Shown here: positions 1,866 through 48,305 of the stretch, in pieces | Layout of the letters: every line of letters begins with the position of its first letter | How positions within the stretch are numbered: the first letter of the stretch is position 1 | NCBI GenBank assembly: GCA_012838065.1 | Contig: DUPY01000018.1 | Coordinates: 1 to 50,110 of the forward strand | DNA length: 50,110 nucleotides | DNA from: Acholeplasma sp. | Lineage (GTDB): Bacteria; Bacillota_I; Bacilli_A; Acholeplasmatales; Acholeplasmataceae | Direction of reading: 5' to 3' | The notes under the pieces: generated by a model | Seen by the model: the letters and a program-made list of their open reading frames with translations, nothing else | Databases searched by the model: none | What the model was told of the DNA's origin: nothing | Made by a program: the position numbers and the translations under genes

Positions 1866-1912
1866 ATAAATAATAAAAGATAGACTATGTGCCAGTGCAA
1901 ATAGTCTATCTT
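1866..1912 (-). terminator. Intrinsic terminator, expression platform of the c-di-GMP riboswitch
   Basis: A perfect 12-bp stem (1877-1888 with 1901-1912) with a 12-nt loop is followed on the minus strand by a T-rich run. It lies between the aptamer and the ribosome binding site of the GLUG gene. A competing antiterminator can be drawn. Bases 1933-1942 at the 3' end of the aptamer pair with 1891-1899 in the terminator loop (9 bp, one bulge), and a second helix of six pairs with one mismatch uses the first strand of the terminator stem. The two folds exclude each other. Confidence 0.85.
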
Positions 1913-1919
1913 ATTAACG

Positions 1920-2003
1920 CGATAGTCGTACGTGCAACTGGCTACCATTTTACAGGCCCTATAGCTTTGCGTCGCCAGATTTCTCTGGGTTTGCCGATTA
2001 ACT
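1920..2003 (-). promoter_or_regulatory. c-di-GMP-I (GEMM) riboswitch aptamer
   Basis: On the minus strand the order of conserved GEMM elements is complete. GGCAAACC is at 1995-1988. A short hairpin with a GAAA-type loop (CCAGAGAAATCTGG) follows. GACGCAAAGC is at 1973-1964, then TATAGGGCCT, and finally ATGGTAGCCAG ending near 1938. This is the signature of class I cyclic di-GMP riboswitches. Because the 3' end of the aptamer also forms the antiterminator, ligand binding should free the terminator and switch the gene off. That direction is inferred from pairing only. Confidence 0.9.
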
Positions 2004-2050
2004 TGATTTTGATTTGTATATATATATACAACTATGTCTCTACATTACTT

Positions 2051-2079
2051 ATTATAGACTAATTGCAAGTAAATTGCAA
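2051..2079 (-). promoter_or_regulatory. Promoter of the riboswitch/GLUG transcript
   Basis: TTGCAA (2079-2074) and TATAAT (2056-2051) are separated by exactly 17 bases on the minus strand, placing +1 near 2044, about 40 bases before the aptamer. TTGCAATT-like words occur three times in and above this promoter. A short A/T inverted repeat (2014-2030) lies in the leader before the aptamer. The remaining bases, up to rplQ, hold nothing else I can identify. Confidence 0.75.
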
Positions 2080-44447: not shown

Positions 44448-47400
44448 TCATAACCGAAATCTGCGCACTTCATCGATTGTAAGTACGTATTTTACGACTA
44501 CTTTAGCTTTTGGTTGAACGATGCGTGCTTCATCAACTTCTACAAAGTATTCATAGACTGGTTCAAACAAATCCTCATGGTCAATAAATGGGTTTCGGTT
44601 ACCTTGTTCTTGATAGATAACTTCATTACGATTGCGTTCAAACTCATCGACTGGATCTTCTATATGCCATTCAAGTAAAATACTTAACATACCTGCGTAA
44701 GCACCTTCAACTGTATAGTTTGTAGATGAATCATTTCCAAGAAGTGTTTCATTATCTGTTAGTTTTAAGAAATCATATCTAACAGCCATGTAAAGCAATA
44801 TTCTTGCTACATCTCCTTTATCTTTATCGCTTGGATAGAAGCCTTCTGCTCCTACTGTTTTTGCTGATCCAATACCAGCAACAAAGTATCTATTTGAACG
44901 CGTCTGATTGATACCGTCAATCGCTCTTAAGTTATGAAGGTCCGAACCTTGATTTCTAGAACTATTATTTACTGTTGATATTCCAAGCTTAGAGTTTGGC
45001 CAAACGTGCTCGCGTTGCCAGGCACCATCGCCTTTTCCTATCCAGGATGTTGCAATCTTCGATTGATTGTACATACCGCGAATACTATTATTGTTATCGT
45101 ATGGGTCTAAATCTGAATCTTCAAGTACATATCGTGCATCACCATAAGATACCGATATAAATCCTGTAGATATAATTGTACGAAGTTTTAATACTAGAGC
45201 CTCTCCAGTTAAGCCTTCAATACCAGTATAATACGGTAAATACTCACCTGGTTCTGGACCTGGATTATCAGGATCGTTTATAACTTCAATTGTAAAGTAA
45301 ATATATTTCTCATTACCGTATGCATCTTTTGCATAATACCAAACATTTTGAGAGGTTGGGTACATAAACTTAATTGTTTCACGTGATTTAATAACCGTAA
45401 TTTCATCACCTTTAAAATCATGGGCTATAGCATCCGGCAATGTATATTCTTCATTAATTAAGATGCTTTCTTTTACTTCTTCTAAAACCTCAATTGTTAT
45501 ATCTAAGTTTGTACCTTCTTCAAAGACATACACTTTAATAATAAATTGTGTCGTTCCTATTTCGTTTGTCGCTTCATAAATAATTTCGTATGCACCTGGA
45601 ACGTCAGTATTCAAATCTGTTTCATACGTTGCTACCATTGTTTGTTCGAAATTATCAACAGCAAACAATGTCGGTATAATAAATTCGCTACCTTCGATCA
45701 TTGAGTATGTATCTTTATCTTCAACTTCAAAAATTGGAAGTGAATTGGACTTTGGTTCTTTTTCTTCAATAGTAATACGAACTTCTTTAATATGAATTTG
45801 TGTGTTTGTTTGATGCACATTTTTAATGCTAAATGTTTGAATATTTAAATCATTAAACGTAATATTACCAGCTTGCAACTCGCTTTTTGTCTTATTTATT
45901 TCTTGTGCATCTAAAGTGAATTTAGCATCTGCAACTTCTGTATCAAAAATAAATTCAACTTTGGTTATCTTATATGTATTATCGATTGAAACCGTTAAAG
46001 TTGTTCCGCCACTTGTTTGATATAGTCTAATTTGACCAGAAGTGTTTAATCCGGCATAGATAGAGCCAGTTAATGTACTTGTTACATTAAATAAATTTGC
46101 ATCTAAACCAACAATTTCAGCATTATTTCCTGGAGTCATGTTTGTTGTCGTACCACCAGGGTACTTCATAATGACTGTCGATTTATCAGCTTCAATGATT
46201 CTTGCAAGAACAGTAATTTCAAATGTTTTTAAAGCTGTTTCTTCTCCATCAGACACTGTAAGTGTTAACGTAACATCAGTATCTATAGTGTCGCGAATAA
46301 CATAACCTATATTGTCATGAATTTGTACTGCAAAACTATTAGATGTCCAAGTGACTTCAATTCCTGCCATGTATGTATTTTGTAATATTAAATCTTTTGT
46401 AACAGATGCGCTGTGGTCATCTTGTTCATACTGAATACTAATTTCGTCAATAATATCATCAACTGTGACTTCTGTACCAATTACTTTAATAATAAACGTT
46501 TTTGTATGTGTTTGACCACCCATGATAATTCCTGCAGTTATGCGAACTGTTGTTGTTTCTTCTTGTCGTGTAACGATAGCTATATCGTTACTAATTTCAA
46601 CGATTGAATTATCTGAATTCCATATAATATCTACAAATCTTATTATTGGTGCTTTTAATGTAATATTTCCAGTTACGGTATCTTTTGTATCACCACTTGT
46701 AAAAATCAGATCTACTTCATCAACAACAATGTTAATATCCATAGGTGCTCCTGCTTTAACAGTGACGGCGAAAGTCTTAGTTACAGTGATTTCATTTAAT
46801 GAAATTTTTGCAGCCAAGACAACTACTACATCCTCAATGAATCTGGTTACAATTGCGTTATTTTCATCTATAGAAATCGCTAAATCTGATGACAACCATT
46901 CAATCGAAGTATTATAAAGGCCTTCCACTGGTAGTTCAAAGTTACTAGTAATATCTAATTCATCTAAAGTTAACGCATCTTTTGCTTTATTAACCTTTTC
47001 TTCATCAGTTAGATTAACAATTTCTTTCGCTTCAACAATAATTGAAAATGTCTTAGTCGTTGAAAGATTACCCAAGGTTATCGTAGCCGTTAATACCACT
47101 GTAACATCTTCATCACCTTGAGTAACTGTAGCGTTTTTACCATTGATTTCAATTGCTTCGTTATTTGAAGACCAAGTAATTGTTGTACTATTTAAACCTT
47201 CTAAAGGTAATTCAAAATCTGCGGTAACTTCTTCTTCATCAATAGTTAATGCTTCTTTTGCTTCATCTACTTTTTCTTGATCCGTAGGAAGCTGAGTTTC
47301 TTCAGTTTTAACTACAACTGAGAACGTTTTAGTTGTTGTAAGTTCACCTAATGTAATTGTAGCAGTTAGTGTAACTGTTACGTCTTCTGTACCGCGAGTA

Positions 47401-48194
47401 ACGATAGCGTCAGCGCCATCGATTTCAATTGCTTCGTTATTTGAAGACCAAGTAACCGTGGTGTTATTTAAACCTGTTAGTGGTAATTCAAAGTTTTCTA
47501 TTACATTTGTTTGTGTAATTGATAATGCGGCTTTAGCAACATCAAGTTTTTCCTGATCTGTTGGCTGTGTCGCATCTTGTGCTTTAACGATAACTGTAAA
47601 GTCCGCCTTCGCTTCTTTGCTATCTTTAGATACAGTGATCGTTAATATAACTGTTGCATCTGATGAAGTCCTTGTTACAACACCTTTATTACCTTCAATT
47701 TTAATAGCTGCATGATTACTTGTCCAAGAAACAGTCACTCCATTAATGGCTGCATTTGGTAATGTAATATCTTGAGTTATTGAGTCTTTTGTATCATTTC
47801 CTGAATATTGAATAGAGATTGAGTCAAGAATTTCTTCCAAATCAACTTCAACGACAAGAGCTTTTACAGTTAACGTAAATGTTTTTTCTTTAAACTCAAG
47901 TGTTGTTGCTACCCTTACAGTGATTGTCACGTCAACATCGTAATCCAATCGAGTTACAATGCCTTTGTTACCTTCAATTTTTATCGCTTCATTATTTGAA
48001 GACCATGTAATTGTGTAATTTTTATGTGCCTCATTTTTAAATGTAATGTCTTGTGTTACTGAATTCTCAGAATCACCAGTTGCATATGTAATTTCAAGTT
48101 TACTTAAAATTTCATCATGTTCTCTTGGAATTGCACAACTTACGATAACTAGTAGTGAGACAATCAATATTAAACTTTGCATTATTTTCTTCAT
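44448..48194 (-). CDS. Secreted endonuclease I-family lipoprotein with Ig-like repeats
   Basis: 1,248 residues from MKKIMQSLILIVSLLVIVSC. An ATG five codons upstream is in frame, but GGGGAGGG lies between the two and serves as the ribosome site. The signal peptide ends at Cys20 in a lipobox-like IVSC. Seven atypical Ig-like domains of about 85-95 residues (about 30-665) repeat a WSSNNEAIxI core and an IVTR strand. A jelly-roll-like part, two DIxVxD/Ig-type segments and then the endonuclease I domain (about 985-1220) follow, with QREHVWPNSKL, SDLHNLRAI, GDVARILLYMAVRY and EWHIEDPVDEFERNRNEVIY. It probably digests extracellular DNA or RNA at the cell surface. Confidence 0.92.
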   Translation of the reverse strand: MKKIMQSLILIVSLLVIVSCAIPREHDEILSKLEITYATGDSENSVTQDITFKNEAHKNYTITWSSNNEAIKIEGNKGIVTRLDYDVDVTITVRVATTLEFKEKTFTLTVKALVVEVDLEEILDSISIQYSGNDTKDSITQDITLPNAAINGVTVSWTSNHAAIKIEGNKGVVTRTSSDATVILTITVSKDSKEAKADFTVIVKAQDATQPTDQEKLDVAKAALSITQTNVIENFELPLTGLNNTTVTWSSNNEAIEIDGADAIVTRGTEDVTVTLTATITLGELTTTKTFSVVVKTEETQLPTDQEKVDEAKEALTIDEEEVTADFELPLEGLNSTTITWSSNNEAIEINGKNATVTQGDEDVTVVLTATITLGNLSTTKTFSIIVEAKEIVNLTDEEKVNKAKDALTLDELDITSNFELPVEGLYNTSIEWLSSDLAISIDENNAIVTRFIEDVVVVLAAKISLNEITVTKTFAVTVKAGAPMDINIVVDEVDLIFTSGDTKDTVTGNITLKAPIIRFVDIIWNSDNSIVEISNDIAIVTRQEETTTVRITAGIIMGGQTHTKTFIIKVIGTEVTVDDIIDEISIQYEQDDHSASVTKDLILQNTYMAGIEVTWTSNSFAVQIHDNIGYVIRDTIDTDVTLTLTVSDGEETALKTFEITVLARIIEADKSTVIMKYPGGTTTNMTPGNNAEIVGLDANLFNVTSTLTGSIYAGLNTSGQIRLYQTSGGTTLTVSIDNTYKITKVEFIFDTEVADAKFTLDAQEINKTKSELQAGNITFNDLNIQTFSIKNVHQTNTQIHIKEVRITIEEKEPKSNSLPIFEVEDKDTYSMIEGSEFIIPTLFAVDNFEQTMVATYETDLNTDVPGAYEIIYEATNEIGTTQFIIKVYVFEEGTNLDITIEVLEEVKESILINEEYTLPDAIAHDFKGDEITVIKSRETIKFMYPTSQNVWYYAKDAYGNEKYIYFTIEVINDPDNPGPEPGEYLPYYTGIEGLTGEALVLKLRTIISTGFISVSYGDARYVLEDSDLDPYDNNNSIRGMYNQSKIATSWIGKGDGAWQREHVWPNSKLGISTVNNSSRNQGSDLHNLRAIDGINQTRSNRYFVAGIGSAKTVGAEGFYPSDKDKGDVARILLYMAVRYDFLKLTDNETLLGNDSSTNYTVEGAYAGMLSILLEWHIEDPVDEFERNRNEVIYQEQGNRNPFIDHEDLFEPVYEYFVEVDEARIVQPKAKVVVKYVLTIDEVRRFRL
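47145..47455 (-). repeat. Direct repeats inside the Ig-like region of the nuclease gene
   Basis: The same 35 bases occur at 47145-47179 and 47421-47455, 276 bases (92 codons) apart, and a diverged copy lies near 47990-48010. They encode the IEINGxx/ASSNNEAI core of successive Ig-like domains. Such identity allows recombination that would change the number of domains. Confidence 0.85.
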
Positions 48195-48305
48195 GTTTTC
48201 CCTCCCCATTAATAATTCAAAAAAGTCTATTGCATTGTCATTATATCATGAATAAAAGTAAAAAATATATGTGTTACTTGATGAGTTTTAGATTATGCAA
48301 ATATG

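Follow-up and report, generated by a model that had tools for sequence, protein, structure and literature searches.

The functional class I c-di-GMP riboswitches of C. difficile are OFF switches and those of class II are ON switches (PMC6366702), and GGDEF/EAL proteins were reported from A. laidlawii in 2008 (PMC2408644). In the literature that we searched, no paper deals with c-di-GMP riboswitches of Acholeplasma or Mollicutes and none says what c-di-GMP does in a wall-less bacterium; riboswitches go unmentioned in a promoter-mapping study of A. laidlawii. We analysed a 50,110-nt stretch of an Acholeplasma sp. genome (the window, used here for the whole stretch), in which the leader of a giant surface protein gene is, with high probability, a c-di-GMP riboswitch of class I whose design is that of a transcriptional OFF switch, as judged from sequence and computed folds. 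The RNA belongs to a known riboswitch family; its target, its pairing with an opposed switch and its host look new, being undescribed as far as the literature searched shows.

The only Rfam family matched in the whole 50-kb window is RF01051 (c-di-GMP-I, GEMM-I), at 2005–1930 on the minus strand (54.2 bits against a gathering cut-off of 35, E 6.6e-8, model positions 1–87 of 87). An earlier note on this DNA had described a GEMM aptamer with all conserved elements in order and proposed a search with the Rfam covariance model; this full-length match bears the description out. The alignment contains GGCAAA, a GAAA tetraloop in P2, the GACGCAAA core and CTATAGGGCC on the tetraloop-receptor side of P3. 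The closing helix P1 amounts to about three pairs by eye (2002–2000 with 1927–1925) and is left unpaired by the Rfam model. This is also the lower-scoring of the genome's two RF01051 elements (54 versus 65 bits), and given the weak P1 and the lower score the predicted affinity may be modest.

Downstream of the aptamer lies an intrinsic terminator hairpin (1912–1877, minus strand, AAGAUAGACUAU..AUAGUCUAUCUU; −17.3 kcal/mol, or −17.9 with a flanking A-U pair), followed by a U-rich tail (UUUUAUUAUUUAU, 1878–1866) that serves as its U-tract. A competing antiterminator hairpin (1942–1891, −17.9 kcal/mol) joins a 5′ strand, GCCAGUUGCACGUACGACUAUC (1942–1921), to a 3′ strand, GAUAGACUAUUUGCACUGGC (1910–1891), which doubles as the 5′ arm and loop of the terminator. 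The first half of the 5′ strand, which opens with GCCAGU, is at the same time the 3′ strand of P3. Aptamer, terminator and an antiterminator that re-uses the P3 strand can thus be read from the sequence, and a terminator with U-tract plus an exclusive antiterminator built on an aptamer strand is the design of an OFF switch that terminates transcription. Terminator and antiterminator are mutually exclusive, as the note had drawn them, because 1910–1891 is common to both. The duplex between aptamer strand and terminator reaches −19.7 against a dinucleotide-shuffle mean of −8.7, with a fraction of 0.0005 of shuffles as good.

Folding the growing chain suggests how the choice could be made. With the 3′ end up to 1893, keeping the aptamer costs 1.7–3.7 kcal/mol above the free minimum; at 3′ ends of 1890–1884 the antiterminator fold lies 8.6–10.1 kcal/mol below the aptamer-enforced fold; and once the 3′ end gets to 1878 the terminator replaces the antiterminator. 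The full leader is near balance (aptamer plus terminator −32.5, antiterminator enforced −31.3), the terminator still forms in folds in which the aptamer is enforced, and at the global free-energy minimum the terminator is present but the aptamer is not fully formed, even in the absence of ligand; because the final minimum is the terminator, read-through depends on kinetics. We propose that without c-di-GMP the emerging strand 1910–1891 would capture 1942–1921, open P3 and block the terminator, allowing read-through, which from these energies would be a kinetic outcome. Bound c-di-GMP would let P3 retain its strand: if the ligand locks P3 before 1890, the antiterminator would be blocked and the terminator would halt transcription ~20–30 nt before the start codon. 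Ligand is expected to give termination because the antiterminator consumes the 3′ strand of P3.

The unit is ordered on the minus strand, from 2079 to 1846, as promoter-like hexamers, aptamer, terminator, ribosome site and GTG. The hexamers that the earlier note had taken for a promoter are there (TTGCAA at 2079–2074 and TATAAT at 2056–2051, separated by 17 nt), and we retain them as promoter-like by location alone, as pairs with 10 of 12 consensus matches are about as frequent as chance predicts for so AT-rich a stretch (four such pairs found, 3.6 expected in shuffles). Upstream, the rpoA–rplQ operon has its own terminator (2262–2239, minus strand), so the riboswitch unit stands alone. The idea of a riboswitch kept beside rplQ across relatives was rejected, as six close relatives have no RF01051 match at their rpoA loci. 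Downstream, a Shine–Dalgarno GGAG (1858–1855, minus strand) can be read directly 8 nt before a GTG at 1846, which is probably the true start of the GLUG gene; an ATG at 1948 was discarded as a start, since it lies inside the aptamer, has no ribosome site and would entail translating the terminator.

Comparable leaders precede homologous genes elsewhere in the family. In A. laidlawii (G005) an RF01051 element at 1183213–1183288 lies upstream of a frame of 5,611 codons with homology to the window protein, and its leader, like those of G008, G010 and G016, follows the same plan of an aptamer with a separate terminator. In all five GLUG leaders an aptamer strand is complementary to the loop and 5′ arm of that separate terminator; in 2,000 dinucleotide shuffles per leader, the fraction doing as well was 0.0005 for the window, 0.001 for G016, 0.011 for G010, 0.03 for G005 and 0.10 for G008 (the last not significant on its own), tests that are not fully independent given the related terminators of the window, G010 and G016. 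The leader sequences vary between genomes while this pairing is retained, with GCUGCAUA re-matched to UGUGUAGC in A. laidlawii and CAGUUGCAA to UUGCAACUG in G016; a MAFFT alignment of the five leaders misplaces the A. laidlawii terminator, and covariation was not taken from it. The suggestion that c-di-GMP turns the gene off, made previously from pairing, is thus backed as a prediction by fold energetics and by four further GLUG leaders. The GLUG operons of G001, G004, G007 and G014 have no leader aptamer, so riboswitch control is not obligatory. In G007, whose GLUG gene itself is without one, an aptamer with an OFF-like platform (L118:221-420) sits between the GLUG gene and the next cadherin-like giant gene.

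Such aptamer-free operons are one reason to consider that the window RNA no longer switches, being a constitutive attenuator or a decayed switch; the weak P1 points the same way, as do the terminator as full-length fold without ligand and the precedent of C. difficile, whose 16 c-di-GMP riboswitches include only 11 functional ones (PMC6366702). We regard loss of switching as unlikely: all core aptamer elements are kept, and the antiterminator complementarity far exceeds that of shuffles and recurs in other genera.

The genome's second RF01051 element (C34:2706-2779, 65.2 bits) is of the ON build, with seven T after GCCAGTTGTCATTAGAAATAATGATAATTGGC. Directly upstream of this element is a run of GGDEF/EAL genes, and downstream of it come genes with TasA/SipW-type signal peptides, which we call TasA-like solely on the signal-peptide motif (AWF/AYW type); Pfam and NCBIfam searches with three proteins of the TasA-like operon gave no match. 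By a strict assignment rule, 38 distinct family leaders (39 listed, two of them one locus) share this build, the aptamer strand GCCAG... itself forming the 5′ arm of a terminator with a U-tract at its end, an arrangement in which ligand should prevent termination. None of the five GLUG leaders has a shared-strand terminator of this type. Judged by sequence, then, one genome carries two class I elements of opposite build.

An ON direction for the window switch would bring it into line with most of its relatives in Acholeplasmataceae, represented by those 38 leaders, and with Bc2 of B. thuringiensis, itself a class I ON switch (PMC4933901). We consider this very improbable, because the hairpin in front of the U-tract here is formed without the aptamer strand, enforcing the aptamer leaves terminator formation intact, and the partner of the aptamer strand is the loop and 5′ arm of the terminator. 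The OFF build remains our reading of the window leader.

Riboswitches of the family show further variety. Two to four tandem RF01051 aptamers precede the TasA-like operons at L106, L113, L130, L133, L138 and L141, most with their own shared-strand terminator. Five riboswitches of Acholeplasma-type genomes (L105, L109, L114, L117 and L119) have no leader terminator; ~90 nt past the 3′ strand of the aptamer, the signal-peptide codons of their first gene hold a 9/9 complement of the aptamer strand (counting G-U pairs) followed by GTTTTT (GCAACTGGCGTTTTTGC). This element could be an intragenic terminator of the ON build, and the coding constraint M-A/V-T-G-V-F-A-W may shape it too.

The note had thought c-di-GMP control unexpected in such a lineage, a view that is overstated and not supported: the genome itself has eight GGDEF and five EAL domain matches, with an intact GG(D/E)EF motif in four of the eight GGDEF domains, RF01051 occurs in 46 of 88 Acholeplasmataceae genomes and GGDEF in 59 of 88, and the A. 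laidlawii proteins have been known since 2008 (PMC2408644). On these counts c-di-GMP signalling is normal for the larger-genome Acholeplasmataceae, a result that takes away the surprise but provides the switch with a source of ligand. In the smallest genomes, those of genus g11, which are probably phytoplasmas, RF01051 and GGDEF are missing altogether or nearly so. A covariance search for the class II family (RF01786) matched none of the 88 genomes, an absence weakly shown as the control genomes were silent too. Searches of the organism's genome (1.18 Mb, 98% complete) gave no transpeptidase domain and one Mur-ligase-type match, consistent with a wall-less bacterium.

An A at position 20 of GEMM-I variants is linked to cGAMP sensing. 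Among 70 family aptamers examined, this position is G in 66 and A in four (L138, in its third unit, L140, L143 and L148). That the window ligand is another cyclic dinucleotide, such as cGAMP, is the least probable alternative: one of the four A20 aptamers is a GLUG leader (L148), but the window aptamer has G at the equivalent of Vc2 position 20 (G1995), marking it as of the c-di-GMP rather than the cGAMP type, and the genome encodes canonical GGDEF domains.

The gene under this putative OFF switch occupies 1846–1 of the window (minus strand), with its GTG start, an N-terminal hydrophobic segment and GLUG motifs, and is cut by the contig end. The opening 68 bases of contig C38 match those of the window (reverse strand) exactly, with the reading frame kept. 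Joining the window contig (C67) to C38 (L175:69-13267) yields a gene of 15,045 nt, 5,015 codons with stop, and a protein of ~5,014 aa whose true length could differ, as the 68-nt overlap falls in a repeat. Its C terminus carries Flg_new repeats and a dockerin, and the giant GLUG-repeat surface protein of the earlier note is upheld in both motif and size.

Next comes a cadherin-like protein (~3,464 aa) that has a membrane helix at its C terminus, then frames of 439, 499 and 603 aa, and the five-gene order is identical in A. laidlawii. The GLUG, cadherin-like, GGDEF-EAL, AAA+ and coiled-coil genes probably form one operon of well over 20 kb on C67 and C38, their spacing suggesting a single transcript. 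Gene three encodes a degenerate GGDEF-EAL membrane protein with a single N-terminal helix (hhalign 98.3%, E 2e-14; model pLDDT 85; Foldseek 7.7e-17 to PA0575 and 2e-11 to V. cholerae LapD) that is without catalytic motifs, reading RDTF where an aligned relative has GGDEF. Gene four encodes a membrane protein that has a Walker-type AAA+ domain and is nearest in sequence to McrB (E 0.001) and in predicted fold to the MCM/RavA group (model pLDDT 76), and gene five a coiled-coil protein. The trio of degenerate GGDEF-EAL protein, membrane AAA+ ATPase and coiled coil that stands after the giant genes is conserved (L184:8684-13287 and L183:6447-11038). Elsewhere in the window, 44448–48209 (minus strand) encodes a 1,253-aa protein that combines an endonuclease I domain with seven 'atrophied' bacterial Ig domains.

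Relatives of the AAA+ protein occur in 43 of 88 family genomes, and many genomes have paralogues ~50% identical at ~3.4–3.9 kb downstream of TasA-like riboswitches, with a further gene behind them. The recurrence of related AAA+ ATPases and a further gene in both operon types suggests two related, undescribed machines for surface assembly or adhesion. Given the opposite builds of the two riboswitches, high c-di-GMP should work in favour of the TasA-like surface proteins and shut down the GLUG apparatus. We tentatively offer the wider picture, credible but short of probable, that in wall-less Acholeplasmataceae two opposite class I switches set the surface reciprocally (c-di-GMP turning TasA-like operons ON and the giant GLUG/cadherin operon OFF), with two related AAA+ surface machines suggested and with the OFF operon encoding its own degenerate GGDEF-EAL receptor. 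The leaders name concrete c-di-GMP outputs of opposite predicted sign in a culturable organism (A. laidlawii), and the operon draws attention to conserved giant surface proteins (~5,000–6,800 aa) that come with a membrane AAA+ ATPase.

Several described systems resemble parts of this arrangement. The LapD-type receptors of Pseudomonas and Vibrio likewise place a degenerate GGDEF-EAL fold beside giant surface proteins; the third gene product differs in having only the one N-terminal helix, the likeness is architectural and a role as c-di-GMP receptor is putative. Bc2, which precedes cap in Bacillus thuringiensis, is also a class I switch in front of a large surface adhesin, but its ON build resembles that of the TasA-like leaders, whereas the window switch appears built OFF (PMC4933901). 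With RF01051 members in general the window RNA shares whole-model aptamer sequence and structure, a terminator/antiterminator platform and a surface-related target; it departs from them in its wall-less Acholeplasmataceae host, in a target that is a giant GLUG and cadherin-like operon with a membrane AAA+ ATPase, and in having a class I switch of opposite polarity in the same genome. A parallel in logic is offered by C. difficile with Cd1 (class I, OFF) and the Cdi-2 switches (class II, ON), where one surface programme is likewise turned OFF by termination and another ON, giving reciprocal control (PMC6366702, PMC11477304). C. difficile splits the task between two riboswitch classes, whereas here both arms are apparently class I, so that one class would give both signs of surface switch.
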